From Pseudomonas sp. B21-056 (GTDB taxonomy: Bacteria > Pseudomonadota > Gammaproteobacteria > Pseudomonadales > Pseudomonadaceae): 64,000 bases of DNA. Under the pieces are notes generated by a model that worked only from the letters and a program-made list of their open reading frames with translations, searched no databases and was not told the DNA's origin. Below, one piece after another: positions 12,552 through 45,438 of the stretch. Position numbers and translations under genes: made by a program. Position 1 is the stretch's first letter, and each line of letters starts with the position of its first letter. The stretch covers positions 3,224,001-3,288,000 of the forward strand of contig NZ_CP087203.1 in assembly GCF_026016325.1 (NCBI RefSeq), written 5' to 3'.

Positions 12552-12603
12552 GGTGAAAGCTCCTGTATTTCCTACAATGCTATGCTCAATTTCAACAAGA
12601 AAA

Positions 12604-12641: not shown

Positions 12642-12675
12642 AAACGCTCTGGAAAACAAAACTTGGAGGCAAGAC

Positions 12676-13146: not shown

Positions 13147-13610
13147 GCGCGGATTACCTTTGGCTGTCGGTCCGGGCAGGCGCGTTACTTGAGTGGCCAA
13201 GTTCTGATCTAGTTGCGCAATGCTCCATGTTTAACAAGTGGGCGATGTCAGATGTTCATAACCAGCTCCTGAGCCTGAGATTGCTGGCTAACTGCTCTAC
13301 AAATTAACGCAACTGTTCATAGATTGATGTTCATAGATCTAGTTTCCCCACGGTCCTCAGTTACCTCACCCCCGACCTGTAACGGTCCCAGTCCAGAAGG
13401 TAATGAATACTGGTTTTCAAAAAACCATGCCCTCGGCCAAAACCCGGCAAGATGATTTCGTGGGACTTATGCTTTGGGCTCCATCTGATAGGTCAGGGCT
13501 ACCGGCGCGTCGGAATGACTAGGGGGGCGGGCCAGTTACTGATTTCCCTTCGCACATCGTCACCGCTATCATCGCTGGCCATTTACTATGGATAGGGCGA
13601 AGGAGTTGCA
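13147..13610. other. Intergenic region, 464 bp, no gene seen
   Basis: No convincing coding sequence on either strand. It contains a 10-bp direct repeat GTTCATAGAT at 13315-13324 and 13329-13338, with a partial third copy near 13253. The region separates the core mdeR side from the mosaic block to the right and could contain an island boundary, but no attachment repeat could be matched to another place in the window. Confidence 0.4.
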
Positions 13611-14607: not shown

Positions 14608-14981
14608 TAGTGGATCAACTGATCCCGGACACGATGTTAAGTCTTTTTCGGACTGAGCTGGTGGCAGTCCGTTATTGAACTGGTATGGCTGAATCCAGCT
14701 ATAGCGATGCAAGAGATAGTGAGTGAGTCTCGCTGGGCCTCCTGGCGGAGGACGTTTGCTGGTGCCAAGGCCCGCCGTATTATATGTCAAAGGTTTCCGA
14801 ACAAGCTTGGAGCTGCTAGGGGTTGCCTCGTCAACTGCAGATCCATTTGCCCATGCTCTCCAGCCGTGAAGGTGAGGCGTCGATATGTGACAATGGCATT
14901 GGCCAGTGGAGTAGAGTGGCCTTTTGCCGCATCGCCATGTGCGGTACCGCCACCTGCAACAGCACAGAAAGGAGACAGGCA

Positions 14982-17900: not shown

Positions 17901-18740
17901 AGCAGGCCGGCCGCAGCTCTTAGTGCGGCCTCGCGGCGTCTCTCTGACGTCCCTACTGTTGATCTTGTTTCGCTGCTAAAGGACAGCATCACTGAGCAGA
18001 ACTCTAAGGGGCATGGTAAGGCTAGCTTGAGTTCTTATGAGGTCGAAAATGCTATCTTGAATTTGTCTGCCCGCATGGACATCTCCTTATCTGATGTGGC
18101 TGCTCTGGAGTTTGCCTACTTCCCTGTTCTTCGAAATGACCCAATGATCTTGCACCGGCTTCTTCTCGAGCAACCAAGCTTCTTTGTGGAAATGCTTTGC
18201 AAGGTGTTTAGGGGTAAGAGTGAGGACCCGAGAGAGATTTCCGAGCACGAGAAAAATTACGCCTCGAATGCCTACCGCTTGCTCAAGAGCTTAAAGACGC
18301 TCCCAGGCCAGTCGGGGGAGGAGGTTGACGAGACGGCATTGCTTGAGTGGTGTCTCGAAGTTCAGAGGTTGTCGAGGGAGCAGGATCGTACAGAGATTAC
18401 GGATCAACTGATCGGACAGGTTCTGGCACATTCCCCACTGAGCACACAAGATGGTGCTTGGCCTCATCAAGCTGTACGGAATGTGATTGAAACATTGGCG
18501 TCCGCTCAGGTCGAGCGTGGGATCAGCATCGAGCGCTTCAATATGAGGGGAGTATTTGGCAAGGCGATAGGAGAAGGGGGCGACCAGGAGCGCGCATTGG
18601 CTAAGCAAACACGGGAATGGGCTGAGGCATCTACGGGATCGGTTCGGACGAGGGCGATGCTTGAGCATATTGCCCAATCTTGGGATCGCGACGCGGAGCG
18701 CTCTGATACTGAGACCCAGCAAAACGCTTTGAGATTTTGA
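14982..18740 (+). CDS. Large (1252 aa) nuclease/STAND-like protein, probable defence factor
   Basis: I recognise only the N-terminal pattern: RIRFPQGDKGQVRGYDGYLD, then SIWEFGTS, then KTKANADYDKRT and TLVLVTPRTW. It recurs at the front of large NTPase-like proteins in defence islands and fits a PD-(D/E)XK nuclease fold (D of YDG, E of WEF, a following K). The next ~150 residues (LLAGREKQAEELLQKL, LIVDTADAANALL, LIYLPR) resemble a degenerate STAND-type NTPase lacking a clean P-loop. The remaining ~850 residues are helical and repeat-like. The start is TTG at 14982 with GGAG 7 bases before it; the frame is open further upstream without a good ribosome site. Single gene; antiphage role inferred. 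Confidence 0.6.
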   Translation: MKWITALQLEQWADALQSRVQIPGLVADLIWATSPKIRRIRFPQGDKGQVRGYDGYLDADSTSPFVPDGRSIWEFGTSGVGKTKANADYDKRTAEVSADERADTTLVLVTPRTWNDTSAKVEDWLAGKNASGDWKGVVYLESTLLEDWLSKCPAVASRWAKFELEIAPPAGMLSTEEFWQSFSTRFEPALVEDVLLAGREKQAEELLQKLRQEGGRLAYSADTTDEVIAFTVAAIRSAPEPVRHYLESRTLIVDTADAANALLSKSGLIYLPRNTACECVGQMLLRGPTVVSAGADDKTHGHIELRRPSSRELGIAIAKMGMTEDQGYEAARICGRSLAVLARQYPSGTAVKPKWLDDTKPLIPVMLAGAWASDAEEDQSIISSLTQQDYEDAEDELRKFLIMPDSPIENVGNLWATRAPVDAFLYLAPYVGRKHLQLFKDAITTVFASAVRSHKPPSPDDPFVRHTQRDTTHSEHLRNGLMTTLLHMAVLHVPAKFTVLGGSPKTFVDDLVGSLPELSSDHRLMASLGQDLALLAEASPNSFLEALERQLEGPSPSIRPIFDEYPGMLTPVTYHCGLLWTLEVLAWIPGTFDRAVRCLAELAAIDPGGKMSNRPINSLRAIFLSWIPCAGVNTTRRLAALQAVVKDVPTIAWPLLETLLPRSGDNSSATEKPKFREYEEGGGETLTYGLVWESEGKIVELAIIEAGHRDERWKSIIDSLQVLQDSAFEAVVGGLDSALNSAPEEPRTQIWKTLNREVKRHQKFSKFDWAIPEERLGQLASLVDKYAPTTLFEHYSWLFDDWMPPVEGQADDDVDSITLVEDARLNALRAIREAHGVQGLLDLMRRVKIPRLVGYACRGLELPYDDLVELFEKIVTSSVAELELIAGAVLADGFSRLGQAWEEAGRSSAQSSGLSSPRLALVLESLPENARAWSYAASFGEEVENSYWSQKTAYQIEGNVQDLSFAIKKYRCASRPAAALSAASRRLSDVPTVDLVSLLKDSITEQNSKGHGKASLSSYEVENAILNLSARMDISLSDVAALEFAYFPVLRNDPMILHRLLLEQPSFFVEMLCKVFRGKSEDPREISEHEKNYASNAYRLLKSLKTLPGQSGEEVDETALLEWCLEVQRLSREQDRTEITDQLIGQVLAHSPLSTQDGAWPHQAVRNVIETLASAQVERGISIERFNMRGVFGKAIGEGGDQERALAKQTREWAEASTGSVRTRAMLEHIAQSWDRDAERSDTETQQNALRF

Positions 18741-20543: not shown

Positions 20544-21443
20544 CTATCGCCTACGCATGGCTCCAAAGAAAGCGGCAAATCTGCGAAGGGACTGATGATT
20601 AGCACTCTTCGGATAATTTAGATACCTTGAGGCAGTACAAAGATCTAGATCTGAATGAGATTCCTTAATTCGAGTGGCGCAGGATACCGAAATTAGAAAT
20701 CCATCTAATTTTTCGTTTTTTTCAACGTAACGATGCAAACTGTGGCGCTGCCCCGATAGAAAATCATCAATGAGGGTCTGTGCATAATTTTCTCCATCTA
20801 TGAAGCAATTAAATTCAAGCACAGTGGAGGGTTCAGCGACAATATCTAAATTTATGGCGATTATTCCTTCCCCATGTCTAAAAAGCTGTTCGCACCCATC
20901 CTTTATTAAATTTTCGAGCCCAGTTGGTGTGTTTAGACGTTTGCATGCGATGGAGTACTCAGCACCATTTATATCAATTTTTATATCTGGCTCAGCAATT
21001 CTAGCACTGATGCCTCGGTGCCTCACATGAGCAAGCATATCTAACTCCCAAGCAGCATCTAGTCCGACCGAAGATTTCGACCGCCCATGCTCCAGAGATT
21101 TCTTGGCAACCCTCCAAAGTAGCAGAACTTCTGAATTTTCAAGCGGGTCTGCTCCTAAAATCAGGTTCATGATGCGCATGGCCTTGAGTACATTGACCTG
21201 AAGAGTTTCAGGTATCTCCTCTGCTTTTTCTTTAAGCGCTACTGCGCTGCATACAGAATTCAAATACAACCCAAGATCGCTGGAGGAATTAATTGAATAA
21301 CCAAGCCATTTGTAAATATCCCTAACCATTATAGATTTTGACTTTAATGCGTCATACGAAAAAAATAGCTCAGGAGGCATAAATAGTCCAGTGTGACAAT
21401 TTTGACGAGGCTTAGTATGCCTAACTTTTTTTGAAGCTTTCAA
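20544..21443 (-). CDS. PD-(D/E)XK nuclease-like protein, last gene of the defence locus
   Basis: Family not named. Residues 130-175 read WELDMLAHVRHRGISARI, then EPDIKIDINGAEYSIACKRL: a P-D followed after about 12 residues by an x-C-K on a strand, which matches the PD-(D/E)XK nuclease core with Cys in place of the usual acidic residue. The N-terminal ~120 residues look helical. Base composition is clearly more AT-rich than the rest of the window, suggesting separate acquisition. It is on the same strand as the DISARM-like genes, 132 bases behind the membrane protein, so it may be a late operon member or an independent gene. Confidence 0.6.
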   Translation of the reverse strand: MKASKKVRHTKPRQNCHTGLFMPPELFFSYDALKSKSIMVRDIYKWLGYSINSSSDLGLYLNSVCSAVALKEKAEEIPETLQVNVLKAMRIMNLILGADPLENSEVLLLWRVAKKSLEHGRSKSSVGLDAAWELDMLAHVRHRGISARIAEPDIKIDINGAEYSIACKRLNTPTGLENLIKDGCEQLFRHGEGIIAINLDIVAEPSTVLEFNCFIDGENYAQTLIDDFLSGQRHSLHRYVEKNEKLDGFLISVSCATRIKESHSDLDLCTASRYLNYPKSANHQSLRRFAAFFGAMRRR

Positions 21444-21575
21444 AGCTCTGCGTTAGAATTCGAGAGACCAATCTGCCATCTACTGAAAGTTACTCAATGA
21501 TGGAAAGGAGTTATCGGGTTCGTGAACGTCCAGATTTACGCTCTGTTGCCAAGATCAACCCGCTATCAGCTAACT

Positions 21576-22211
21576 TCAGTGCCGCGCCCCATTGCCGGGG
21601 CGAGCTGAAAAAGCATCAGGGGGAAGCTCATTTTTCGGCGTTGGGTTTGATCCTGACTGCTCTTCACCAGTCGCAACAGAGCAACAGGTACATAGTGTAG
21701 TTGTCGGAGCTGGAGAGACCGTTTGTGGTTGAGTCGAGCATGATGCAATGGACGGAGCGGTAGGTAGTATATCATTTCTCAGAAAAGCTGCCGAAACAGC
21801 GGCACCTGCACTGACAAGCGCAGCCACCACAGGCACCCACACCTTCCAGCGTTCGGCCCGCATCGCTTCCTTATCGTGTAGTTCGACCGCAATTTCGATC
21901 AGCTTGTTAACCACCGATGGGTCAAGGGGCGCCCTGATCCGCTTGTTATTTTCTGACGAATACAGCAGAACATAACGTGATACGAGGGACACTCGATCGA
22001 CACCGAATTCTTTCAAACGTACCCGAAAGAGCTCTGGGTGATTTTTCGCTACTTCAATCCAAGATATTGCTGAGATTGGAGCGTAGCAGAGTTCTTTTCT
22101 AAGCCCGTCTTCACTTCGACTGGTGTTTCGGTGATACGCGAGCACCTGTATGAGTGCAATAACCTCACCTAATCGCCCGTATTTCAAATAGGAGGAAAGC
22201 TTCCTGCTCAT
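21576..22211 (-). CDS. Single-pass membrane protein in the DISARM-like locus
   Basis: Not recognised. The N-terminal ~110 residues look helical; near residue 120-142 is one clear membrane segment (VWVPVVAALVSAGAAVSAAFL), followed by a Pro/Ser/Cys-rich, low-complexity tail. The chosen ATG at 22211 follows a weak AGGGAT site; the frame remains open to 22313, overlapping the DUF4263 gene. It lies 46 bases after that gene on the same strand. A membrane component is unusual for DISARM-type systems and could serve as an effector or anchor. Confidence 0.6.
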   Translation of the reverse strand: MSRKLSSYLKYGRLGEVIALIQVLAYHRNTSRSEDGLRKELCYAPISAISWIEVAKNHPELFRVRLKEFGVDRVSLVSRYVLLYSSENNKRIRAPLDPSVVNKLIEIAVELHDKEAMRAERWKVWVPVVAALVSAGAAVSAAFLRNDILPTAPSIASCSTQPQTVSPAPTTTLCTCCSVATGEEQSGSNPTPKNELPPDAFSARPGNGARH

Positions 22212-22257
22212 GCCGATCCCTGATAAATGATGAGTCACTATGCCTTTAGGAAGGCTG

Positions 22258-23406
22258 TTAATCTGCAGCCAGGTGCCTAATAAAAAGCTCCAATTTTCGC
22301 AGAAGCTCATCAAAGGTGATTATTTCGACATCTTTGTAGGAACATCTAAACGTCTCAAACGAACGTAGTAGCTTTGACTCGGCGGGGAGGGTTCCTGCGA
22401 TTACCACACAACGGGTATTGTCCGGCCGAGAGCCTGCAAGCACCTCATCATCACGATGAACCCCCCACGCCGTTTGTAGCGAGTGGCGCTGATACAACAC
22501 TTGACTAACTGCCCCGCTTAACTCTGAGTCTGGCGCATGAACCCCGCCGCCATGGCGATACTCTCTTTTCTGTACCAGAGGCGTAGAGGGCTTTTTGATC
22601 TCGACAATTGACAGAACCTGACCGGCTCCTCGAAAAAGATAGTCACCTATTTGGGCTCCTGTCCCTCGGACTCCACTGGGCTGGGCATGAAACTGACCGC
22701 TTACCAAATGCACGGGTCCACAAAACAACATCGTCAGTATAAAAATATTCTGATCGAAGAATTTTTGCCATATGTTCTCGCTCAGCTGTTGAGCAAGCAT
22801 GTTGCGATATGAGTCGATCATTTGCTGCAGCGAGACCCGCTCGATATCTGCATGCAGCGCCATCAAGGTAAGTGGGTGCTCAGCGACAAGCGCCGGAAGA
22901 CTCTCTCGGACTTTTACCACCGCACGCCGGCGAACCTCAGCTGCGTCTGTAGGACCTTGCGATGGACCAATGCGGTTGAGCTCTGAAGTGAAGTCCAATT
23001 CGTTCGTGTTTTCAAACTCCGTTTCTATTTCTGAATTGCTGGGAGCGGGAATCCCCGTCATAACCATCTGCTGTATGCGGATTGGTGATTGATCGCCAGC
23101 ATGACTGACATGTATTCGATAAAGTCGGGCGCCGTGTAAAAAAGGAGCTAACTCCAACGCAAGAACACGATCACCCACTTGCCATTTGTGTGGTGTTGAC
23201 TGCACGAACAAAGTGCACGTTTGACCTATCATCAACGTCCGTTCTACCGCTGCAGCTCGTGCCTGCGGGAGTCCCACACGAGTACAAATGGAATGAATAT
23301 CCAAGGGTACATCTAGCGCGCCTTGACCTGCGGCCTCACATAAGGCGGCGCTGACATCGCAATGTGGGGTGAGTAAATTAAAGGCGTGGAGTAATTCAGC
23401 TTTCAT
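22258..23406 (-). CDS. DUF4263 (Shedu SduA-type) nuclease, coupled to drmB
   Basis: The C-terminal half carries the DUF4263 signature: SENIWQKFFDQNIFIL, then GAQIGDYLFRG followed by LSIVEIKKPSTPL (D...E-x-K, the PD-(D/E)XK active site), SELSGAVSQVLYQRHSL, and VEIITFDELLRKLE. DUF4263 is the nuclease domain of the Shedu antiphage protein. The ~190-residue N-terminal region is probably a separate sensor or adaptor domain. The start codon overlaps the end of the drmB-like gene by 11 bases, so both are translationally coupled and very likely act together. This is the position where one would look for DrmC, a phospholipase-D nuclease; no HxK motif is present here. Confidence 0.8.
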   Translation of the reverse strand: MKAELLHAFNLLTPHCDVSAALCEAAGQGALDVPLDIHSICTRVGLPQARAAAVERTLMIGQTCTLFVQSTPHKWQVGDRVLALELAPFLHGARLYRIHVSHAGDQSPIRIQQMVMTGIPAPSNSEIETEFENTNELDFTSELNRIGPSQGPTDAAEVRRRAVVKVRESLPALVAEHPLTLMALHADIERVSLQQMIDSYRNMLAQQLSENIWQKFFDQNIFILTMLFCGPVHLVSGQFHAQPSGVRGTGAQIGDYLFRGAGQVLSIVEIKKPSTPLVQKREYRHGGGVHAPDSELSGAVSQVLYQRHSLQTAWGVHRDDEVLAGSRPDNTRCVVIAGTLPAESKLLRSFETFRCSYKDVEIITFDELLRKLELFIRHLAAD

Positions 23407-25618
23407 TGTGTTCGTTAGTCATCTCGAGAAAACCGCGAATGTGCTGCCCCTTGTGCGTCCCATCTTCGCGAGGTGGAGGACCACCCTTCAGTACGGCACG
23501 TGACAATAGCTGATTTTGTGCAACGCACGACGTTTCCGGAATCATGATGCAGTCAGGACAGGCGCCTCCCGCTGCGTCGCAAAGCCGACCAGAGTTGCAG
23601 CGATGGATTGAGGCATCTAGGAAACGTCTTAGGAATAGATTGTTTTCGTTCCGCCACAACGATGACAAATTACCCAAGTCCATCGTGGTTCCGTTTCGAT
23701 AGACTACAAATGCGAGATCGAGAGGAAAGATGTACTCCCCCATGGACCCAAGATCCAATCCTGACAGCTCAGCCACGTTTTTCATAAGTGCATGTGCGTA
23801 GGTATGCAAGAGGGTGTACACGTAGCGGTACGTGGTGGCATCCCCTTCTTTGAGAAGGGAGAAATAGCGACCAAAAGGTTCTGCCACCTCCAGCAGCTTT
23901 CCGCCCAGTTTGACTGGGCTGCTGCTGTCCCACTGGGGCAAATCTGATACCCCGATGGCCTGCAACCATTTATACACAACCTCGGGGTCGAGGCGCACAT
24001 AGAGTGCTTCGTTAGCTTGGGTCATGACATAGATAGGGCGTTTGCCATTATTCAACGGCTCAAAGAGCTTCAATCGAACGGGGACATCCTTGTTGCGCTT
24101 GTTCAATATCGGAGTGGCGGAAACACGCGTATACCCATGGGTGAATCGGCACAGGTCAAATTCGCGGATTAAACCCAGATCTGCCATGCCAAGCTTTTTC
24201 ATCAAGTGCAGGGTTTCGGCTTCCTGTTTGGCCTTAGCGTTCGCCCCTTTTGGCGCAAGGTCATCATCAAGATGGTTGAAGCGCACAAACTTAGCGCGCC
24301 CCCCGTCAGGCGGCGCGGAGAGTTTGCCTCTATTCAATGCCTCGTGCTCGACTGCCAGAACGAAGGGGTCGAAGCGGCTAGTGTATTCGCCGCGCGACGC
24401 AAGCTGCTGAGTTATGGCTAGAGGAAGATCGACTCGGGGAGGTATGAGTGGTGGGCTGCTGGTTGTCCATCTCGTGACCAGTTTTTTGAGCTCACTGTCC
24501 ACTACCGCTTTAAGGGACCCATCTCCTGAAACTGCGCTTTCACGCATTAGACAAAGACTCTCGTACGTTTCCCATTCCCCGGTTTTACCGGCAGCCAGCA
24601 AAATGGCCTTCATTTCTGCTGGTGTGAGCTCAGCGCCACCAAATCTGAAGAGGGAACCTATGAAGGCGGCAAGTTGATCATCGTTCTGTGGCTCCAGCAG
24701 AGTGATCAACTGGTGCTCCGACTCTGGAAACAGAACAAACTGTTCCGACTGTGAATAGTATGCAGACGATGCTCTATACGAGATGGGTTCCATCCGTCGT
24801 TCGCCTAGACGGGAACTGGCTTGGTCGCGAAAAAGCTCTGTCGTAAATTTATCTTGCTGACGCCACTCATTTGCCCCTTTGTGCCCGCAAGAAGGTTTAG
24901 CACAGTAGAAGTGCCACTTACCGATTCGGGGCGAATCGGTGTTCAGTTTAAATTCATTGCCTCCGCAAAGCTGGCATTCTTCACCGGAGAGTCTTGGCGT
25001 GTTGTTACGATCATCCCACTCCCAACGACCCGGAGTGACTGGCATCCACTCACCCGACCAATGTACGAAAACCACATCGACCTGCCGCCATTGGCAAGGC
25101 CCCTTGGCGTCCACTGATGTACACCGATTGTTTCGCAGTTGGTCCATGTTCTTGGCCATATCGCGAACGGATGTAAAACGTTTAAAAAGGCTGCATTTAT
25201 TGCAAACGAAGGTCAGAGGTGCCGGTGCGTATTTCATCCGCAGCGGGCTCAAGAATGCCAAGCGATCGGCGCCCAGAGGCGACACAACGCCTCGATTAAG
25301 AATCGCTTCTTCGAGACATTGTTGTGGAACGACCGGACGGTCGGCAGTTCCCGCGGCAGACGCCCTTAAGAACCAGCTCTGCCAGATTTCATGCAGCCTC
25401 AAAATGATTTGCGATTTCGTGACGCTTTGAATAGGTGCATCATCAGTCGTTGCCGTAAGGTCCGGGATTGAAATACACGAACCCAGTCCACCTTCAAATG
25501 TGAAGAACGCGCCAGGGGCATACGCTGATCCAAGTTGACCACGAGATCGTGACATTGTCGGAGCAGTGAGTGTCCTGTCATCGTCATCAGCAGCAAGAAA
25601 GCCTTTACGAGTACCCAT
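23396..25618 (-). CDS. drmB: DrmB-like DUF1998 protein
   Basis: A 740-residue partner of the helicase. The N-terminal half has zinc-ribbon-like Cys pairs: FVCNKCSLFKRF near 140, CQLCGGNEF and YCAKPSCGHKG near 230-260. The C-terminus carries the DUF1998 Cys cluster: C-N-S-G, then C-D-A-A-G-G-A-C-P-D-C, then C-V-A-Q-N-Q-L-L-S-R. A separate DUF1998 protein directly after a DrmA-type helicase is the DISARM core; in Druantia the same domain is fused in DruE. The ATG at 25618 is 1 base after the helicase stop, with GGGAG inside the helicase end, so translation is coupled. Confidence 0.8.
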   Translation of the reverse strand: MGTRKGFLAADDDDRTLTAPTMSRSRGQLGSAYAPGAFFTFEGGLGSCISIPDLTATTDDAPIQSVTKSQIILRLHEIWQSWFLRASAAGTADRPVVPQQCLEEAILNRGVVSPLGADRLAFLSPLRMKYAPAPLTFVCNKCSLFKRFTSVRDMAKNMDQLRNNRCTSVDAKGPCQWRQVDVVFVHWSGEWMPVTPGRWEWDDRNNTPRLSGEECQLCGGNEFKLNTDSPRIGKWHFYCAKPSCGHKGANEWRQQDKFTTELFRDQASSRLGERRMEPISYRASSAYYSQSEQFVLFPESEHQLITLLEPQNDDQLAAFIGSLFRFGGAELTPAEMKAILLAAGKTGEWETYESLCLMRESAVSGDGSLKAVVDSELKKLVTRWTTSSPPLIPPRVDLPLAITQQLASRGEYTSRFDPFVLAVEHEALNRGKLSAPPDGGRAKFVRFNHLDDDLAPKGANAKAKQEAETLHLMKKLGMADLGLIREFDLCRFTHGYTRVSATPILNKRNKDVPVRLKLFEPLNNGKRPIYVMTQANEALYVRLDPEVVYKWLQAIGVSDLPQWDSSSPVKLGGKLLEVAEPFGRYFSLLKEGDATTYRYVYTLLHTYAHALMKNVAELSGLDLGSMGEYIFPLDLAFVVYRNGTTMDLGNLSSLWRNENNLFLRRFLDASIHRCNSGRLCDAAGGACPDCIMIPETSCVAQNQLLSRAVLKGGPPPREDGTHKGQHIRGFLEMTNEHNES

Positions 25619-25619
25619 C

Positions 25620-28600
25620 TCAATCTCCCGTCCGCGCATCTTCTGCGCTGTCGTTATTTGCTACTCCGTGGCGTACGAAATCCATTACCGCCAAGACCTC
25701 ATTGGAGAGTTGTACCTTGCCTTCGCTATCGCAATACGAGGCTTGAATGATGCCAGCCTGATCCACGTCGCGTAGCGATGTCATAGGTTTGGAGATCACT
25801 TCCGTTTGACTTTTGAAATAACCGTCCAGGAAACCGCTGCCCCACATATGGCTGCTCCAAACATTGACTAGTAGATCGCGAGTCCTCCGGTCAATACGTG
25901 CTCGGTAATATTCCTCTCCTTCGGGAGCGAAGACGCCACGCAACCCCACAGCGAGCTCAATGAAATCGTTGATTTCGTTGATAAATGCTTCTCCGCGAAA
26001 CCTGTATTCTTTACGAATGTTGGGAATAACACTGAAATCCGATGTTTTGGCTTTCTGATCTTCTGGTAGCTGAATCAACTCGCGACTTGGCACCACACCA
26101 ACCAAATAAGCCTGAAGCAGGCTGGTGAATACACGCTCGATTGCGCGTTCTGCCCATCGGTCGATGGCCGCGGGCTGCACCATACGTTCAAGGAAGCGGT
26201 GGAAGATGTCGAACACATGAACTATGTGCCGATCACGACGACGCTGTGGCGTGGGTATCAAGACAACGAACCCAATGTGAGCACGACCCACGCGCGAGGA
26301 CGCTTGAATGTACTCGGCAATGTCCGAAGGCATGCCTGCAAAAAACATAGAGTTGAACTCGTCGACGTCGACGCCGTGTGAAATGGCTGATGTCGCGATG
26401 ACTGAGCGCAACTGATCTTGTAGCGGCTGAAAAGGATGCCCTGGATTTACGCGAAGTTGGGCAGTATCCACGACATTTTGAATTTCCCCTTGCTCCACCG
26501 AACCGGTGATCAGTCGAGTATCAAGCCCCCTCAGATCCATTCCTTCATTGAGGTGTCGCTTGCGGGTTTCCTCCGCCTCCGCAGCCATAATCTGATCACC
26601 ACCTTTTTTATTGGTGACGTAAGTCAAGGCTATGCGATGCAGGTCAATGAGAGTGGCCAGTTTTGATGCGCAGGCCTCACCTAATGCGTCCTTGTGCAGC
26701 GCCTCGAGAGCGCCTCGGGAGACGTGCTCCACGAGCAATTGGCGTGCAAATTGGAAAACTTCTGCGTCATTGCTCGTCAGGTCGTTGAACAGGCGGGTGA
26801 CGTTGAAATGAAAGCTCGATAAAACCGCAACACTTGTCGTCGTATGCGGCTTTCCGTTGGTCATGAAGGCTGTGTAAACACGGGCTTGGCTGCTCGCCAC
26901 TTCGATGTCCGGATGCGCTTGACGCTCTACATCCTCCGCTGGAGCGGGTACCGAATAAAATGATTCGTAAAGGGTTGGGCCCGGCTCGGGAAACTGTGTT
27001 GCCGGAATCGAGCGTTGGTACAAGTGCTCCAGCTGCCTCTCAGGAGCAGAGACGGTAGCGGACGCGGCGATCACCTTAGCCCGGCGCCTACGCCCTTGTT
27101 TATCTGTTGCGACCAAGCCGCTGAGTGGCTTGGACAGGTATTCAAAGACGGCATCGAGTGTGGATTCGAAGAGACCGGCGAAGGTGCCCAGCGATTCATC
27201 GAGTAGGTGTGCCTCGTCCTGGATGATAAGGCTGGGGAATGGATCGTGAAAAATGCGCTTTCCAGCCGAATAAGCAGGGTATATCCCCTCCATGCCTTTT
27301 GCGTCAGGCCCCGCAGCTAGCTCACGAGGTTCAGGAACGTACAACCGCCCGCTGACCGGATTCATCCAAGGCGACGCTCCGAACATCGCGTAGATGCGCC
27401 GAATGGTTCGAGCTGAATGGCCAATGAGGGCCAGCTTATCGACGGTACCCAAAAGCACGGACGGTGCTAAATCGTAAATGTCTTCATCGACAATGTAGAA
27501 CGGAAGGGGCCGCCAGCTACCACCGTTTGAATCGCATTGGATATCGGTGCATACATGGCCCAGTATTTGGTCCCTGTTATCAACAAATAGCCGCAAAGCT
27601 GTTTCGCAATTACAGAAAGGGCATTTGGGCAGCTTGCGCCAGGCACGCATGGCAGTGTGATATTTGGCGTCGTTTTCCCGAAGGGCTCGCTCAGCCGCTA
27701 GGAATGGAGGTGCAGACAAAATGGTTGGGATGCTCTTCACCCCCTTAGTATTGTGACGGTTAGGAGAGCCGCCGCTGCCGACCCAGAATCCTATGGACAA
27801 TGGGTTACCACCGTAGCCATGACGATTTCGGACACGCTCAGCATGTGCCAGTACTCGTGCGCACCGCTGGGCCTGTTGGATCGTTAGCAATCGCAACGGG
27901 TAGCGAATGAGCGCAGTGACCCCTAACTGCTTACCTCGAAGCCGATCAAGCATAAGGTTAAAGGTCAGCAGCCCGAAAAAAGCTTCAGATTTGCCGCCGC
28001 CGGTCGCGAAGTAAAGGAGGGTGACAGCGTCGTCTCTGGTTTCGTTGTAGAGGTGCGAATACTCCGGAATTCGCGAGGCCAAAGCAGGAACATTCGCAAT
28101 GATGAAAGCAAGCTGAAACAAGCGCCACTCATTGTCGTCCTGGCCAAAACGGGCCTGCATGAAGTTCGCCATTGTCTCGTTAGTGGCTAGCCAAGCTTCA
28201 TAAACAATTGCTTTTGGGTCAGCCTGCGTGCCTCGCTCGCGCCAAGCCGCACGAGATTCCCTCAAGCAATTCAGGCCGGCAGCGATAGTCGCCATCTCTG
28301 TGGTCCATTTTCGGATGTCGTGGCGAAACGCCTCTTCCTCGCGTGCAATTCCGGCTACGTCGGAAGCGGATAGGCCATCGGCAGGCGACACTTGCTCGGG
28401 TAAATTGTTAAGCCATGTTTGCATGGCTGGCACCAGCGCCTCCAACCCATCAAGTCCATCTGGTTGGGCCAAGGCACGTATTTTTCGCACGACACCAGCA
28501 GCGCTCGTGGGAGTGATTCGCGGCTGGGTGTAACGAGGCGTCCACGTAGTCTCTAGAGTCCGAATCGCAGGGTCGGATTGTAGTTGCACAACTCCGCAGT

Positions 28601-29819
28601 TGTGCCCCATGGCTGGATGTGTCAGGTACTTGTTATAGCGATAGGAAGGGTCAATTCGCTCGAGTTTCAACGGATGGTGAAGCGCAGCCGGAAGCTGTAT
28701 TTGTAGAGAAACGAGGAAGATAGCTTCCTCCGTCTCGTCTACATGCTGAGTCGGCATACTGCTGACGTTTTCAATTGCGAGAAAGAAATTTCGTTTGGAA
28801 GGATCGAGCCAGTCTGTATGCAGCTCGAGATCCCAATCTAAGTGTATCTGCGGCAATGTTATTGGTAGCTGAGACGTGCGCGCACTCTGGAGAAATTCCG
28901 CCCAATTCGAGTATTGACTGGCGGGTATGCTCAACTGGTGCCGATACCCCCACGCCTTACCACCAGAGTCCAGATCATCGCTTTCAGCCCAATCCTGCAG
29001 CCGCTTGTTCACGGCCTCATTCATACGCAAGGACTGGTTGTCGATGTCTTGCTGAAGAGCTTCAATGGATTTCGCGGTATCGAGTTCCAGTGGTGGTAGC
29101 TCCACATCCAATCGCAACCATTTGTGTGGGACCGCCAATGGCTCGAAGTGCTCGTCTTTGATAGGAAGAGCCTCGCGTGAGTTGACGAGCGCTCCCTCCC
29201 TCGTGCTATCACTAAGTTCTTCCATTTCAGCTGAAGAAAAATCCTCGGCTTCGGCCGAATCGTGAGCAAGATCCGAGGTCAGCAGATCTCTCGGGATGCC
29301 TTTCGCTGCGTAGATTTCCTCAACAATCGTCGACCGGATTGCCGTCCACCCGGGATGCTTATATTTCGAGCTATAAGTGCCTTTGGCTTTCTCCCACGCT
29401 TCTTCCAGCCGACGGTTACGTTCAGCCCGAATCTCGTCAACCACAGCCCGGCGCAACATAAAGACAGGACGACAGTTTGGCCTTTTGAGATCCTCTTCAC
29501 GGGGAAGCACGCGCACGTAGACACATAGCCTCGGGAATACCGTTATCACTGAAGACGCGAGGGCATTGAGTTGCATCTGGACCCCGTGCGACGAAATCCA
29601 GATAGGCGATGTCACTTCATCGTCACCGGATTGGTTGCGCTGGGGCAGCAAAAAACCAGAATTTAACAACGTTCTTGGACGAGCTCCGAAGAGATATTGC
29701 CCTGTGGAACCATGGCCGCTGATTTGTGCATACGTCAGATTCAGAAGGCTATCGACGACCGCCTCCTTGAGGGTAGAGGAGATCTTTGCCGGATCGTCAC
29801 GAAGCGTGGGTTGGCTCAT
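25620..29819 (-). CDS. drmA: DrmA-like DEAH-box helicase of a DISARM-related system
   Basis: A 1399-residue superfamily 2 helicase. Walker A is FATGGGKSEAFFG near residue 605, the DEAH box (IIQDEAHLLDESLG) near 867, and motif VI (QASSRVGRAHIG) near 1174, following ATSAISHGVDVDEFNSMFF. The N-terminal 580 residues are unrelated to a helicase core and probably form regulatory domains, as in DrmA. Between motifs I and II a C-P-F-C-N-C zinc-like site occurs. DrmA/DrmB bind and translocate DNA in DISARM; here the same is inferred. Its ATG overlaps the stop of the preceding gene by 4 bases (ATGA). Confidence 0.85.
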   Translation of the reverse strand: MSQPTLRDDPAKISSTLKEAVVDSLLNLTYAQISGHGSTGQYLFGARPRTLLNSGFLLPQRNQSGDDEVTSPIWISSHGVQMQLNALASSVITVFPRLCVYVRVLPREEDLKRPNCRPVFMLRRAVVDEIRAERNRRLEEAWEKAKGTYSSKYKHPGWTAIRSTIVEEIYAAKGIPRDLLTSDLAHDSAEAEDFSSAEMEELSDSTREGALVNSREALPIKDEHFEPLAVPHKWLRLDVELPPLELDTAKSIEALQQDIDNQSLRMNEAVNKRLQDWAESDDLDSGGKAWGYRHQLSIPASQYSNWAEFLQSARTSQLPITLPQIHLDWDLELHTDWLDPSKRNFFLAIENVSSMPTQHVDETEEAIFLVSLQIQLPAALHHPLKLERIDPSYRYNKYLTHPAMGHNCGVVQLQSDPAIRTLETTWTPRYTQPRITPTSAAGVVRKIRALAQPDGLDGLEALVPAMQTWLNNLPEQVSPADGLSASDVAGIAREEEAFRHDIRKWTTEMATIAAGLNCLRESRAAWRERGTQADPKAIVYEAWLATNETMANFMQARFGQDDNEWRLFQLAFIIANVPALASRIPEYSHLYNETRDDAVTLLYFATGGGKSEAFFGLLTFNLMLDRLRGKQLGVTALIRYPLRLLTIQQAQRCARVLAHAERVRNRHGYGGNPLSIGFWVGSGGSPNRHNTKGVKSIPTILSAPPFLAAERALRENDAKYHTAMRAWRKLPKCPFCNCETALRLFVDNRDQILGHVCTDIQCDSNGGSWRPLPFYIVDEDIYDLAPSVLLGTVDKLALIGHSARTIRRIYAMFGASPWMNPVSGRLYVPEPRELAAGPDAKGMEGIYPAYSAGKRIFHDPFPSLIIQDEAHLLDESLGTFAGLFESTLDAVFEYLSKPLSGLVATDKQGRRRRAKVIAASATVSAPERQLEHLYQRSIPATQFPEPGPTLYESFYSVPAPAEDVERQAHPDIEVASSQARVYTAFMTNGKPHTTTSVAVLSSFHFNVTRLFNDLTSNDAEVFQFARQLLVEHVSRGALEALHKDALGEACASKLATLIDLHRIALTYVTNKKGGDQIMAAEAEETRKRHLNEGMDLRGLDTRLITGSVEQGEIQNVVDTAQLRVNPGHPFQPLQDQLRSVIATSAISHGVDVDEFNSMFFAGMPSDIAEYIQASSRVGRAHIGFVVLIPTPQRRRDRHIVHVFDIFHRFLERMVQPAAIDRWAERAIERVFTSLLQAYLVGVVPSRELIQLPEDQKAKTSDFSVIPNIRKEYRFRGEAFINEINDFIELAVGLRGVFAPEGEEYYRARIDRRTRDLLVNVWSSHMWGSGFLDGYFKSQTEVISKPMTSLRDVDQAGIIQASYCDSEGKVQLSNEVLAVMDFVRHGVANNDSAEDARTGD

Positions 29820-32602
29820 TGCAGCGTTTCCTTAGAAAGTCCGACAAACTCGACGGAGGCAATGCTTTCACGCGCCTTGTCGAAAAGCTGATTCAAAGTC
29901 GTTCGCTTGATACTCGAGTTGGCCATAACGGATTCGGGCTGCAGGAGCATGTACGCATAGATGTCGGCGACATGGCGACCATCTAGCCGACGCGAGTTAC
30001 GTACCGCCGTGATGACGCGCTGCCACTGGTAAGCAGCTTCCAACGGAGACAGTCCGAGCACCGTTGCAAATGCCTTGAAAGTCTCCTCGCGCTGTGGCGC
30101 CTGTGGCCGAAGCTGCTCGAACGGGGTGTCGAGTGAGCGTCCTAAATCAATCCACTGGCGCATCGCCTGAGCCCCGGGAAGTTTGGTTTCCAGAAGAGGG
30201 TCAAGCTCAAGCATCTGCTCTCGTATTACGCGTACCTTGTCAGAAAGTGAGCCCTGCGCGAATCGCTTAGCGAGGCATTTCTGGATCTGCTCGTGATAAC
30301 TTCTCAAGGCAGTTTCGAACGTCTTATCCGATTGAATAGGTACGCCCGCTTCACGGAGTACTTGCTCGACCATCTCGCGCAGCTCAGCTGACATGATAAA
30401 AACCTTATCACCCACCTCCAGGGAGCCGACGTGGCAAGTCCGAAAGCCTACATCTGCTGCCCGCGGCGAAGCCGGGTCGTAGACGTACATTTCCGATTTC
30501 TCATGGCGGAACAGCGTCACGTTGCTGTCAAGTCGGATAACCCAAGATTCGGCTCCATCACCATGCCCCTCAGAGGAAACATTGGATGACAACTCGACAC
30601 GAAAGGTAGGTAGCACATAGTCGCTAGTGGAAAGTACAGAAGCGTCTTCCGGGAGATCTTTCAGTTTCCTCAAAATGGATTCCATCCGAGGCTTAAAGGA
30701 TCTGAATTCGGGCATTAGCTCGACGATAGGCTTGAGCGTGGCCCGTAGAAACTGCCCGGCTCGCTGGGTTAGCAAAACCACCGTATGGGAAGGAACACGA
30801 TCATCGGTCAGCAATAGACGAAGGCAGTCCTCGTTTAATCCAGCACAAACCAGTGTCGAGCCTTGCAGCTCATCAAGGCGTTCTTCGAGGTGAGCGGCAC
30901 ACAACAGTTGTACGCGCCCTTGAAAGGAGTCATATATCAGCCCATCGGGATACTGGTCGTACTCCGCGAGGAAGCGTTCGGCGAGGCGCAGATACAGCGC
31001 ACTGGTAAACACGATGGCAACCTTACGCTTTGAGCTCTTTGCAGCGTTGGAAACAAGCTCTGCCAACTTATGCGCGAAAGGCGTCGCCTCGTGATAATTG
31101 CAGAATAGTTGTGAGCTACGCTGAAGACATTCAAAAAGGGCTGGCCCCTGGTCTCCAACGCCAACGGTACGCTCGAACTCCTGTACGTTACCCAGGTGGT
31201 TGAGCCAATCGAAAGCGGCGCGTGTCCGCTGCGACACTTCAATACCTGCCAGATAGTCGGACATATGCCTGACGCCGCAGGGGAGGGCTGCAAGACGAGA
31301 AAGGTACGACGCTGCGTCGATTAGTGGTTTGGCAGACTCTTTGCCCCCCGGTGCAGCATTGGCGATACGTACCAGCTTGTTAGCTGATTTGGCCGTATCC
31401 GCATCAACGATAAAAACATTGAGTTCCCGCGGAGCGGGATGCAGGGTTTCCTGAGCCAATGGCGCCAATAATCCCGCTCCACCGACAGTACTCGGAACAC
31501 CCAAAATTTTGAATTCGTGGGGCGTGTGCCATTGACTTGAAGGGTTCCGCTTGCGGTTCTGCTCCCAGAGTTCCTCCTTGATCCTAAAAGCAGCATGGGG
31601 CTCATCAGTGATTACAATAACGCCAGGGGGGCGACCTTGAAATACGTCCTCCAGCATTATGCAGAAGCGCGCCAGTTGCTTTTTCCAGCTTTTGGCCTCC
31701 ATACGAATTGCTCGGGTAGCCTGGACTAGAACGACCTCCGGTGAGCCAAACCGAGCCAGATCTCTGCAGGCGCGTCGAAGCTCGGTCTCTGACATCCGTC
31801 CATCAAGTGCAAAGAGGGCATCTGGTGCTGTACGCGGATCACCGATGACTGCGCAGTTCAATTTTAAAGCAGTCGCGAGTTTCCTTCTGAGTTTGGCTCG
31901 GATAAGCGCCAAAAGGTGCTCGTCGCAAGATTGCCAACGGTCAAAATCTGGCGTCGCCAAAAAGTGAGGCAGCAGCTCACCAACTGTCGGATTGAATGGG
32001 TCGTCTAGGTTTTGAGGAAAATTACTGTCGGATAGGGAAAAGTAAAAGGCGTCTTTGTCTCCCATGGAGCGAGTCACACTTGCGTTGGCGTCGGCGCTTA
32101 CCTCAAGCAAGTTGTGAGCGATTCGAAGAATGCTTGTCCGATCGAAATGGACGTGATTCAGACCATAAAAGGCATTGCTCTTCACTGGAAAAAGCAAGCC
32201 GCGAACTCCTTGTTTGTCGCCCTGATGCCAGCGTACCAACGTAGCCAACGCGTGTACCAGAGGCAGGGTTTTGGGCGCCGCGGGCCATGCCATCACGATG
32301 TGTCGTGATCGGTGCTCGGCAGCATGCAGATAAAGATCTGCCAGCGCTAAAAGCGTTGAGGAGGGCGCGCTCGGCTGCAAGCTGCCATCTCGGTACATCG
32401 CGATGAGAGCTTCATGTGCACGAGGTACGATGCTAGGAGCGGGCGTTTCTACCGGGACGGTTTGAACCGTTTTACGCGCATGGGTCTTTAGTGCAGGTTT
32501 TGCATGGGCGAGAGGTTTGCGTGCCGCGAACAGCTGCGCAAGTTCCTCGCGCCGTCGCTGTTGCGCTTCCATTAAGTCGTTGAGCTTCTTCCGTGATGCC
32601 AT
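29816..32602 (-). CDS. DrmE-like protein of the DISARM-related operon
   Basis: A 928-residue protein placed directly before drmA. There is no clean P-loop, but two regions have helicase-like alternation of strands and helices: RHIVMAWPAAPKTLPLVHAL at about 98, and KVAIVFTSALYLRLAERFLAEY at about 520, followed by VLLTQRAGQFLRATL. This suggests an inactive helicase fold. Size, order and lack of catalytic motifs fit DrmE, the class 2 DISARM protein of unknown function; identity is not proven. The N-terminus is basic and Ala-rich, probably flexible. The stop overlaps the drmA start, and the methyltransferase lies 53 bases upstream. Confidence 0.6.
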   Translation of the reverse strand: MASRKKLNDLMEAQQRRREELAQLFAARKPLAHAKPALKTHARKTVQTVPVETPAPSIVPRAHEALIAMYRDGSLQPSAPSSTLLALADLYLHAAEHRSRHIVMAWPAAPKTLPLVHALATLVRWHQGDKQGVRGLLFPVKSNAFYGLNHVHFDRTSILRIAHNLLEVSADANASVTRSMGDKDAFYFSLSDSNFPQNLDDPFNPTVGELLPHFLATPDFDRWQSCDEHLLALIRAKLRRKLATALKLNCAVIGDPRTAPDALFALDGRMSETELRRACRDLARFGSPEVVLVQATRAIRMEAKSWKKQLARFCIMLEDVFQGRPPGVIVITDEPHAAFRIKEELWEQNRKRNPSSQWHTPHEFKILGVPSTVGGAGLLAPLAQETLHPAPRELNVFIVDADTAKSANKLVRIANAAPGGKESAKPLIDAASYLSRLAALPCGVRHMSDYLAGIEVSQRTRAAFDWLNHLGNVQEFERTVGVGDQGPALFECLQRSSQLFCNYHEATPFAHKLAELVSNAAKSSKRKVAIVFTSALYLRLAERFLAEYDQYPDGLIYDSFQGRVQLLCAAHLEERLDELQGSTLVCAGLNEDCLRLLLTDDRVPSHTVVLLTQRAGQFLRATLKPIVELMPEFRSFKPRMESILRKLKDLPEDASVLSTSDYVLPTFRVELSSNVSSEGHGDGAESWVIRLDSNVTLFRHEKSEMYVYDPASPRAADVGFRTCHVGSLEVGDKVFIMSAELREMVEQVLREAGVPIQSDKTFETALRSYHEQIQKCLAKRFAQGSLSDKVRVIREQMLELDPLLETKLPGAQAMRQWIDLGRSLDTPFEQLRPQAPQREETFKAFATVLGLSPLEAAYQWQRVITAVRNSRRLDGRHVADIYAYMLLQPESVMANSSIKRTTLNQLFDKARESIASVEFVGLSKETLQ

Positions 32603-32655
32603 GTGCCCTGCTTAAGTCGATTGATTTCAGCTTTTAGGCAGCATAAGCGAAAGGT

Positions 32656-34416
32656 TTACTGCTTTTCCAATGCCTTTCGAGCAGCATTTGCCATGTCTAA
32701 GCCTTGTTCGAGGTAGATCCTGAGCCGGCCAGGATCAGGCAGTCGGAGTTGGTTGAGCTCGAACACTGATACGTTGGTCGCTCCAGAGATACAGCGGAAG
32801 TATCGATCTACGGTCGGCGTCCCAAGCAACTGCACCAACTGAGCAGGTGTCAATGCAGGTTCAGGGGCTATCTGTTCAAGAATCACGGTGTGGTTTTCAC
32901 CAACGAATCCGCCATAGGTCTCTATGAGCTGTGTCGGAACAGTTGCGGCAACTAATCGTCGCGGTTGCTCGTTGGATGTCACGCGTTGCAGTAAGACGCT
33001 GGGGCGGCGAATGATGGAACGATGGTCTTTTGCCCCCATATTTACAAAACAGCCTTCTTTGTTCGCTTTAGCCGCACCGTTAAAGCGCAAGGAACCGTTA
33101 GGTGCAATGTCGCTGGACCAAAGCAGCGGAACCACCGTGTCGCCACGCGCGCCGACAGCCGTTTTCGTCGAGGCGTAGGTTGTGCGTGTGTCACGGTTCC
33201 ACACAAACGCGCCGATACGGGGCGCATAACCGTAGTCCACTAAGCCAGCCTTCGATTTTGCTGCGCTTTTAAGCAGTGCGATGTCGCTCTCCAACCGGGG
33301 GATTGGCCACGCGGCGCCCATGTTGGGCAAGATGCATAGACCCACGTCAATGTAACTACCGTCTTTTGAAACCAACGACACCTTCGCTTCGGTGCTTGGC
33401 GCATGCCCTGTTTTTTCTCGCCGCGCTAACGTCAATGCGGTCTCCTGTTGGACATCCATAAAGACGCCAATACGGTCACCAACCATACCAATACCGAGCA
33501 ACGTGGTTTGCGTCATCATGTAACTTCTCAGCCTGGAGAAGTTCTGACCAGACAAAAAGCTAGTCGGGGTGACCAGTGCGCAGATGCCACCCGTAGCGAG
33601 AAGCTTGATGCACAAGGCAATGAAGAGGGCATACAGATTCGGCTGGCCTTGAACAACGTCTTCAAACTCGTGGACGTACTGACTGACTTCCTCAGCGCGC
33701 ATCTTTCTAAATGGAGGATTGCATACCACCACATCGAGCTTTTCCCACAGGTGCTTGGTTTGTAGAAGCGAGTCGCCCTGGTAGACCTGAAACACGGGGT
33801 AGGTGTCAGTCGCGACAACCTCGTCATGGAGCGCCATCAGCAGGAAGTGCTTTGACAATTCACATAGGGCGGCATCTTGGTCAAATCCCAAAATTCGCTC
33901 TTGAATGTGGCTCACTATCTGTTGGGCGCTTGCACCATGTCGGCGAAGCAAATCACGCATGCGCATAGCGATAGGTGCCAAAAACGCAGCGCCGCCACAC
34001 GCGGGGTCACAAAAACTGCGATTGGAAAAATCGACGCCCTGGGCTGACAGGTCGTCAAGCAAACGCCTCGTTAGCGATGGCGGAGTAAAGAACATCGCCT
34101 GCTGCTTTCTGCGCTCGCTTCCCAACAGTTGCGCGTACGCCGAGGAGAACCAGTAGGTCGACTCGATGAAGTCAAGCTTGCTTACAAACGCCACGAACGC
34201 GCACACGGCAGGCTCGTTCAAGAGGAGGGTTGCTACGGGTAGACCGGACTGTGGCAATCCCGGAAAACAGTTACTGCACCATTTTGCTAATGCGCTGCCC
34301 AGGATCAAGTCCGGCTCTAGCATCCCCTTTTGCATCACCACACGCATGTCGCGGACTAGGCTGTGAAAGTGAGTTTTAGTAGGGAGAGTCATAGGTGGCA
34401 CAGGCCTGGTACGCAT
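32656..34416 (-). CDS. N6-adenine DNA methyltransferase of the DISARM-related system
   Basis: Modifies adenine in host DNA so that the restriction part can tell self from phage. SAM-binding motif I is FCDPACGGAAF near residue 138; the catalytic motif IV is CNPPFRKM near 235, the NPP[FY] type of N6-adenine methylases. Then comes LLATGGICALVTPTSFLSG and a C-terminal ~230-residue region that should be the target-recognition domain. At 586 aa it is smaller than the class 1 DISARM methylase and has no fused nuclease or helicase. Start uncertain: the ATG at 34416 lacks a good ribosome site, and the ATG at 34392 is an alternative. It is first in the tight gene run. Confidence 0.88.
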   Translation of the reverse strand: MRTRPVPPMTLPTKTHFHSLVRDMRVVMQKGMLEPDLILGSALAKWCSNCFPGLPQSGLPVATLLLNEPAVCAFVAFVSKLDFIESTYWFSSAYAQLLGSERRKQQAMFFTPPSLTRRLLDDLSAQGVDFSNRSFCDPACGGAAFLAPIAMRMRDLLRRHGASAQQIVSHIQERILGFDQDAALCELSKHFLLMALHDEVVATDTYPVFQVYQGDSLLQTKHLWEKLDVVVCNPPFRKMRAEEVSQYVHEFEDVVQGQPNLYALFIALCIKLLATGGICALVTPTSFLSGQNFSRLRSYMMTQTTLLGIGMVGDRIGVFMDVQQETALTLARREKTGHAPSTEAKVSLVSKDGSYIDVGLCILPNMGAAWPIPRLESDIALLKSAAKSKAGLVDYGYAPRIGAFVWNRDTRTTYASTKTAVGARGDTVVPLLWSSDIAPNGSLRFNGAAKANKEGCFVNMGAKDHRSIIRRPSVLLQRVTSNEQPRRLVAATVPTQLIETYGGFVGENHTVILEQIAPEPALTPAQLVQLLGTPTVDRYFRCISGATNVSVFELNQLRLPDPGRLRIYLEQGLDMANAARKALEKQ

Positions 34417-35846: not shown

Positions 35847-36242
35847 TTACCGCTTTCGCAATGGAGTCAGTATGTTTTCGACATCCAATCCTTTCAGCAG
35901 ACAGTTGTGCGCAATTGCCGACAGTGCTTCATAGAGCTGGTCTCGCTGCTTTATCAAGTCGGCATTCTCCGCCTGCAGATTAGCAATACGTTCTTCGAGG
36001 CTTCTTCGGCGGCGGGCACCGTCTGGATCTCTCCCACTCTCCTTGAGTTGTGCGATACGGGCGGACTCGATTCGCCTCCCACGGTCCCCCACTAAGGTAG
36101 CTCGGCTAGTTAGGCCCAATCGACGCTGCACTTCGGGGCGTGAAATAGGCGCGTTCTCTAGTCCTAAGCTAATCATTTGGGCGAGGAGGGCGTCGATCGC
36201 CTCATCCAAGGTCCCGCCTCTCAAGGTCTGTCGATGAGCCAT
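35847..36242 (-). CDS. DUF6262 / Tn554 TnpC-like accessory protein
   Basis: A 131-residue basic protein. The middle carries the landmark region ISRPEVQRRLGLTSRATLV, a helix-turn-helix-like motif, followed by RRRRSLEERIANLQAENADLIKQRDQLYE, a coiled coil. This is the layout of TnpC/DUF6262 proteins that accompany pairs of tyrosine recombinases in Tn554-type elements and assist their action. It begins 8 bases after the stop of the large recombinase reading frame, as the last gene of the recombination module. Confidence 0.8.
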   Translation of the reverse strand: MAHRQTLRGGTLDEAIDALLAQMISLGLENAPISRPEVQRRLGLTSRATLVGDRGRRIESARIAQLKESGRDPDGARRRRSLEERIANLQAENADLIKQRDQLYEALSAIAHNCLLKGLDVENILTPLRKR

Positions 36243-36250
36243 GATCGCCT

Positions 36251-39647: not shown

Positions 39648-39658
39648 GGCGAACCTCC

Positions 39659-40912: not shown

Positions 40913-41048
40913 TGGCAGCCACCTCATTCAATGACGCGCCATGAACACGAAGGACATGGCCCGTTGAGAGAGTGGACGCCAGAAGCGTCTTTGTCTAATC
41001 AGTGCTTTAAGCTGCTCATGAACCTATCTGACATAGCACCTGATTTAA

Positions 41049-42323: not shown

Positions 42324-42336
42324 AGCCAGGGTGCGC

Positions 42337-45405: not shown

Positions 45406-45438
45406 GGCCAACGTCCTCTAAAGAGTGCAAGAGCCATA

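Follow-up and report, generated by a model that had tools for sequence, protein, structure and literature searches.

A Shedu nuclease core behind a DrmC-like adapter in a DISARM-related operon of Pseudomonas

Introduction

DISARM systems are described as drmA, drmB, and drmC together with a methyltransferase gene (Ofir 2018, as cited in PMC9142583). The account of the solved complex presents nuclease recruitment as an open question (PMC9142583). An operon of Pseudomonas sp. B21-056 raises this question in another form. It lies in a stretch of 64,000 nucleotides (contig NZ_CP087203.1, positions 3,224,001 to 3,288,000), which we call the window and number from its first letter, and its last gene encodes a nuclease of the Shedu family downstream of genes resembling drmA and drmB. 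How does a Shedu nuclease come to stand in the place of DrmC, and is it part of the same system? Our sequence comparisons argue that this is a real effector swap, that it occurred at the level of a domain, and that it recurs in this branch of DISARM-like systems.

Results

The nuclease joins a DrmC-like adapter to a Shedu core

The putative swapped effector, P0004 (22258..23406, minus strand; 382 residues), was characterized using Pfam, PADLOC, its homologues, and a structure model. It matched SduA_C in Pfam with 82.8 bits against a cut-off of 27 and SduA in PADLOC with E = 1.2e-117 (390.7 bits), and its profile matched the solved Shedu protein 8ti8 with E = 8.8e-57. Following the PADLOC descriptions, we equate SduA_C with DUF4263, the family named for this protein in the original prediction, which had been made from the letters of the window.

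A protein search with the nuclease returned 57 homologues of three kinds. Ten clusters had the same build and were 59-93% identical over nearly the full length. Six clusters of phospholipase D (PLD) proteins of ~282 residues (P0045-P0047 and P0051-P0053) aligned to nuclease residues 1-137. The other 41 matched the Shedu core; most of these were 460-510 residues long, and most aligned only from approximately residue 142. When residues 1-103 were used as a BLASTP query, identity was 61-72% to the six PLD proteins (E = 2e-39 to 8e-49) and 59-99% to the ten Shedu-type proteins, with nothing significant among the 41 remaining homologues. The Shedu core of the window was ~44-56% identical to Shedu proteins of ~470-500 residues, in whose N termini no adapter was seen. 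Since the adapter matches PLD proteins and the core matches Shedu, the front 100 residues group with DrmC-like proteins and the remainder with Shedu. On these alignments, the nuclease is a chimera of an adapter found in DrmC-like proteins and a Shedu catalytic core.

The DrmC-like character of the PLD proteins was evident in PADLOC, whose DrmC models matched all four that were scanned from the set of six. P0047 scored 39 bits against the NCBIfam model DISARM_DrmC_I, below its cut-off of 133. N termini of more distant PLD proteins also aligned to the adapter (hhalign probability 94, E = 1.4e-7, from a single target).

The adapter (residues 1-100; 23107..23406, minus strand), common to the PLD-type nucleases that occupy the same slot, is predicted to form a winged helix between long helices. 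Alignment and structure model place a linker after it (residues 101-149; 22960..23106, minus strand). This linker is variable and mostly absent from Serratia and Klebsiella relatives, and the predicted local distance difference test score fell below 50 at residues 105-151. The PD-(D/E)xK nuclease core occupies residues ~150-382 (22258..22959, minus strand). Its candidate catalytic residues are D255, E269, and K271, and the corresponding D, E, and K were intact in all 11 Shedu-type sequences.

The operon is related to DISARM

According to the list of open reading frames (ORFs), the operon comprises five genes spanning 22258-34416, all on the minus strand and all at the predicted positions. The first, P0005 (32656..34416; 586 residues), encodes a predicted N6-adenine DNA methyltransferase, with matches to N6_Mtase (61.8 bits) and Eco57I (52.1 bits) in Pfam and to MTase_II (508 bits) in PADLOC; its sequence contains NPPF and DPACGG, which we take to be methyltransferase motifs. 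After a gap of 53 bases comes P0001 (29816..32602; 928 residues), the conserved second gene of the system, which overlaps the drmA-like gene by 4 bases. The product of that gene, P0002 (25620..29819; 1399 residues), is a DrmA-like superfamily 2 (SF2) helicase of the YprA type that contains DEAD and Helicase_C domains in Pfam and matched DrmA in PADLOC (E = 2.2e-86) and, by sequence, the solved DrmA 7s9v_A (E = 2.8e-45). P0003 (23396..25639; 747 residues from the first ATG) is a DrmB-like, DUF1998-type protein that matched DrmB in PADLOC (E = 5.7e-19), and its profile (A2) matched the solved DrmB 7s9v_B (E = 4.8e-5). Counted from this ATG, drmA and drmB overlap by 20 bases; related DrmB proteins begin 7 codons later (25618), a start that leaves no overlap. 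As predicted, drmB and the nuclease gene overlap by 11 bases (23396..23406, minus strand; ATGAAAGCTGA).

In NCBIfam, P0002 reached 359.7 bits against a DrmAS cut-off of 950, and P0003 reached 45.3 bits against a DrmB cut-off of 240. Because both fall under these curated cut-offs, we regard the methyltransferase, 928-residue protein, DrmA, DrmB, and Shedu set, judged by sequence, as a DISARM-related operon and not as DISARM in the strict sense. The original prediction of a DISARM variant with a swapped nuclease is therefore upheld for the related core and the replacement, but not for strict DISARM membership. It had also proposed that the locus lacks a true DrmC, and we found no PLD gene within the window; the 13 PLD matches in this genome all lie outside it. 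No operon protein matched DrmC or DrmE in PADLOC.

DrmD or DrmE serves as a class marker of DISARM, and the name DrmE-like had been given to the 928-residue protein. At E<=1, P0001 matched neither DrmD, DrmE, nor any other family among the PADLOC and NCBIfam models, and its predicted structure resembles a degenerate SF2 helicase. On these model searches and this predicted fold, the protein is not recognizably DrmE, and we set that name aside. P0290, a homologue of 1097 residues, is listed with a PLD domain and could represent either a fusion of the second and last genes or an assembly artefact.

PLD nucleases predominate in the slot after drmB

A DrmB alignment, run against 84,980 species genomes, yielded 54 loci. 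Because the scan depends on a pair of short peptide patterns, it is not exhaustive, and records of the window's own genome may have been omitted. We compared ORFs with profiles of the adapter, the Shedu core, PLD, and the other four proteins, and used tblastn to look for remnants in the 4 kb that follow drmB. The slot could be judged in 47 loci; in the other seven (L021, L023, L037, L044, L047, L050, and L054), the contig ended inside drmB or <0.8 kb after it, with L044 showing a weak match to the PLD-type N terminus. The order methyltransferase, 928-residue gene, drmA, and drmB on one strand was found in 47 of the 54 loci, some with genes in pieces. The exceptions were L015, L021, L023, L043, and L050, which are cut by the contig start, and L052 and L054, which contain only broken drmA and drmB. 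At loci such as L004 (Sedimenticola), L006 (Porticoccus), and L026, these four genes stand in this order and an adapter and PLD domain come directly after them.

An ORF encoding PLD adjoined the end of drmB in 30 of the 47 judgeable loci. The adapter profile matched significantly in 16 of these and not in 14, and 27 of the 30 genes encode at least 280 residues (the exceptions being L045 and L052, which are shorter, and L055, truncated at the end of its contig). The Shedu type was found once (L002, Pseudomonas sp. 2FG). The slot was interrupted, reduced to a remnant, or empty in the other 16: the PLD gene of L008 is split by ~2.4 kb, L003 and L028 contain the adapter with no recognized nuclease, L009 retains only an adapter remnant, and in 12 loci neither profiles nor tblastn detected a nuclease within the 4 kb, three of these giving only matches of 37-39 residues inside the drmB end. 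Not all loci are independent, as the L006 and L007 nucleases are identical and the L036 and L037 scores nearly so.

Two loci diverge after the adapter. In L003 (12264-12877) and L028 (12111-12872), two Burkholderia copies that are alike, the sequence that follows it fits neither the PLD nor the Shedu profile, and Pfam gave no match in L028. This part may be a product of decay, or it may represent a third kind of effector. In L031, the gene after drmB (12207-14409) had weak Cap4-nuclease and ABC-three-component matches below the Pfam cut-offs and no PLD.

The Shedu type recurs in a second genome

The complete Shedu-type context was seen in two genomes, that of the window and that of L002, so the predicted pairing of drmAB with a DUF4263 gene does recur. 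Among 398 genomes of the genus, a full-length nuclease was present in the window's own genome and in one other, which we take to be the L002 genome; the other 33 match places started at residue 140 or later. Because no more than four candidates are scored in each genome, this search could miss a protein consisting of the adapter alone. Samples of the order (390 genomes) and class (369 genomes) each returned the window and one further genome, these extras apparently being among the 54 loci already. The window's own genome contained no second match to the nuclease, and neither DrmA, DrmB, nor the adapter was found at the eight stand-alone Shedu loci that we opened among these 33 places (eight of eight; 12.9-20 kb each).

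Protein records suggest further members of both types, in pairings inferred from the records and not read from gene neighborhoods. Shedu-type P0012 and DrmB P0109 were assigned to one Serratia fonticola genome, and Shedu-type P0008 and P0185, a homologue of the 928-residue protein, to another single genome. PLD-type P0047 and DrmB P0068 have consecutive locus tags, and P0045 with DrmB P0071 and P0053 with DrmB P0077 are likewise paired. The protein search also returned Shedu-type copies from Klebsiella aerogenes (P0014 and P0015).

We found no relative in viral contigs, for which both the DrmB alignment and the nuclease served as queries, in phage records searched with DrmB, or in E. coli genomes searched with the 3' end of the operon. 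The nuclease matched 129 plasmid records, none covering 80% of the query, and the best 20 of the 129 match the Shedu core only. DrmB matched 36 plasmid records, seven covering at least 80%; the closest of these seven, 51% identical, has a PLD nuclease.

Shedu most likely replaced PLD behind a retained adapter

We compared DrmB in a midpoint-rooted tree of 33 rows, 16 of which were labelled by effector (3 Shedu and 13 PLD, the latter including L008). PLD occupied the deep labelled branches, and the three Shedu-type rows were nested inside. Two changes were needed, none of 200 bootstraps gave a single-origin tree, and the approximately unbiased (AU) test gave p = 0.134 for one origin. A tree of 27 adapters (12 Shedu and 15 PLD) also placed PLD on the deep branches and needed two changes, with one origin in 6% of 200 bootstraps, an AU p of 0.138, and a warning for long branches. 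The best trees need two changes, yet the AU test does not reject a single origin in either. With PLD on the deep branches, the nuclease slot most likely held PLD first and received Shedu later, while the adapter and the overlap stayed.

The junction with drmB is consistent with this order of events. An 11-base overlap of the pattern ATGnnnnnTGA, with the adapter starting exactly there, was found in the window and, among 20 loci that bear the adapter, in six: L002 (Shedu), L004, L006, L007, and L026 (PLD), and L008 (split PLD). In L015, L022, and L028 the adapter possibly starts at the same place; the other loci, mostly more distant, have other offsets. This overlap in PLD sisters, together with the family and structure matches and the shared adapter, bears out the predicted placement of a Shedu nuclease where a DISARM-related core would have DrmC. 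Most simply read, these sequences point to a recombination event close to residue 100, behind the adapter, that left both it and the drmB coupling in place.

Adapter identity followed DrmB identity closely (r = 0.92; 120 pairs from 16 systems). The window adapter was 68.7% identical to that of Shedu-type L002 (DrmB, 79%) and 62.1% identical to that of the Serratia Shedu type (DrmB, 73%), compared with 68.9% and 68.0% for two PLD-type adapters (DrmB, 79% and 77%). The separation is not clean, however: pairs of two Shedu-type systems, three in all, fell 7 points above the regression line. Since adapter divergence tracks DrmB, these comparisons suggest docking of the adapter.

The operon lies on a mobile island

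The related genome G010 aligns with the window as far as 13167 (95.6%) and again from 41044. The ~28 kb between these points (13168-41043) are absent from G010, which carries ~200 other bases at this empty site. Near the right end lies a four-gene recombinase module (35847-40927) that resembles ginABCD. It encodes a tyrosine recombinase of 422 residues (Phage_integrase), a protein of 331 residues with a weak integrase_1 match, and proteins of 625 and 131 residues without a clear family. In GInt islands, ginABCD are described as three tyrosine recombinases and a small protein at one end (PMC5385486). With two of the four genes recognized, a GInt island is probable; the 422-residue recombinase also weakly matched the GmtY recombinase of gamma-mobile-trio islands. 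No exact direct repeats of at least 10 bases were found at the island ends. From this comparison, the putative defense operon is cargo of a ~28-kb recombinase-bearing island.

Other genes accompany it. A protein of 1305 residues (14823-18740) matched phrog_18693, a phage-associated family with no assigned function, over nearly its full length (1060 bits) and had only a marginal JetC/MukB-like match in PADLOC; it is possibly another defense gene or a phage-derived gene of the island. G010 also lacks, at the corresponding place, a further 11.3 kb (42328-53635) that lies between the right flank of the island and 53636.

The original prediction had extended the locus down to 20544. We excluded the two ORFs concerned, 20544-21443 (299 residues) and 21576-22313 (245 residues), as parts of the system because tblastn (E<=1e-5) found them in none of the related loci compared, the window's own DNA apart. 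The first has a TTG start, with an ATG ~63 bases further in, and contains the stretch EPDIKIDINGAEYSIACKR, which we take to resemble a PD-(D/E)xK nuclease motif. It had no convincing match in Pfam, PADLOC, NCBIfam, or a phage-family search. Counted from its ATG, the second encodes 211 residues (21576-22211) with a likely transmembrane stretch by eye; the longer ORF had a marginal SLATT match in NCBIfam.

Discussion

We consider it rather likely that the locus is a methylation-linked, DISARM-related defense operon whose effector nuclease domain has been exchanged and whose adapter docks to a DrmAB-like complex. The gene order, the domain borders, the shared adapter, the conserved junction, and the PLD proteins on the deep branches, all read from sequence, form the basis of this proposal. 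In it, the methyltransferase would mark host DNA as self, and the DrmA/DrmB-like pair, perhaps assisted by the degenerate helicase-like 928-residue protein, would load onto unmarked or structurally foreign invading DNA and travel along it. Serratia DrmAB is described as recognizing DNA by structure, at 5' overhangs (PMC9142583). The last gene would supply a two-part effector, with an N-terminal winged helix that docks to the complex and a nuclease at the C terminus. For most sister systems this nuclease is the DrmC-like PLD domain; here, a Shedu core appears to have replaced it at approximately residue 100. E. coli SduA reportedly finds DNA ends by an N-terminal clamp (PMC12904381). Since the part corresponding to this clamp is gone from the window protein, something else would have to aim the enzyme; the simplest candidate is the helicase complex, which would direct the Shedu core, stripped of its own sensor, to cut phage DNA.

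We also lean, a little less firmly, toward a more general proposal: that DISARM-branch systems carry an exchangeable effector slot, in which a drmB-coupled winged-helix adapter accepts unrelated nuclease folds after residue ~100 and Shedu acts as a plug-in cutter driven by a DrmAB-like helicase. If true, this would answer how DrmAB-like complexes recruit their nuclease. An exchange behind a constant N-terminal domain singles out that domain as the likeliest recruiter, and it provides matched natural pairs, the same adapter with two nucleases, in which recruitment can be tested. The exchange further suggests that loss of its own sensor does not prevent a Shedu core from being retained.

One alternative, which we consider unlikely, is that the winged helix senses the methylation mark or a DNA structure and guides either nuclease with no stable contact to DrmAB. 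The adapter fold matches mainly ArsR/MarR-type winged-helix regulators, the winged helices of DpnI and HhiV4I are described as sensing N6-methyladenine (PMC11037411), and the operon encodes an adenine methyltransferase. However, the adapter of most of the 16 systems is near neutral (isoelectric point 5.6-8.6; a single adapter reaches 10.0), and the presumed recognition helix in the window type, LPQARAAAVERTL, has no basic character. The correlation with DrmB is expected of a partner surface, and also of plain co-inheritance.

Less likely still, the nuclease could be an optional accessory: DrmAB would provide most of the protection by blocking phage DNA, and the gene in this slot could be lost or exchanged at little cost. 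Several results weigh on this side. No nuclease was found in 12 of the 47 judgeable relatives, from which this alternative gains weight; four more have an interrupted nuclease or an adapter without one, and DrmC is reported to be dispensable in DISARM (PMC9142583). Set against an optional nuclease are the PLD gene in 30 of the 47 loci, 27 of them at least 280 residues long, the intact Shedu D, E, and K in every Shedu-type sequence, and the drmB overlap preserved in near relatives.

Finally, defense genes cluster, and the PADLOC SduA model alone would call this gene Shedu, yet a stand-alone Shedu that landed beside a DISARM relative lacking DrmC, giving two separate systems, is very improbable, and the shared adapter and junction led us to reject it: the N-terminal 100 residues group with PLD proteins of the same slot and not with stand-alone Shedu, the 11-base overlap is that of PLD-type loci, and L002 has the same arrangement.

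We found no DISARM-Shedu arrangement in paper titles or abstracts, a search that mostly left out the subscription literature, and regard its novelty as provisional. The terms Shedu, DUF4263, and SduA are absent from the main text of the YprA-family preprint PMC12458937. The McrBC/CoCoNuT paper (PMC11090510) mentions a DISARM-like system, without Shedu in the portion available, and a 2026 BREX paper (PMC12839542) states, citing a Mol Cell 2025 paper, that a link between Shedu and BREX has been made. Single-gene Shedu models could annotate such loci as a lone Shedu, with the core proteins staying under the NCBI DISARM cut-offs.

Among systems described in PMC12458937, ARMADA has a YprA helicase with a C-terminal Vsr nuclease domain, also of the PD-(D/E)xK type, and a BrxHII-like helicase. 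There, helicase and nuclease are fused, whereas in the window the helicase and the DUF1998 protein are separate genes. We rejected ARMADA membership, as the 1399-residue protein matched no Vsr family at E<=1 in Pfam and the domain layout differs. DrmC of the DISARM type also has an N-terminal helper domain before PLD, described there as a Cas11-like four-helix bundle; the window adapter is instead a predicted winged helix flanked by long helices. The same preprint provides a precedent for the swap: in archaeal BRIGADE, PLD nucleases are occasionally substituted by PD-(D/E)xK nucleases. BRIGADE differs in being archaeal and Dpd-like and in having nucleases that, in its description, lack the N-terminal bundle.

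With the Shedu proteins of B. cereus (8ti8) and E. coli (8ps4), the window protein shares the nuclease core and keeps the D, E, and K of the B. cereus motif. It carries a DrmC-like adapter in place of Shedu's own N-terminal sensor, and it is the fifth gene of an operon, whereas Shedu is a single-gene system. With DISARM, the operon shares a methyltransferase, a DrmA-type helicase, a separate DrmB-type gene, and a nuclease gene after drmB. It differs in DrmA and DrmB proteins that score below the NCBI cut-offs, in a pseudo-helicase of 928 residues that matches no DrmD or DrmE model at E<=1, and in a Shedu core where DISARM has the PLD domain of DrmC.

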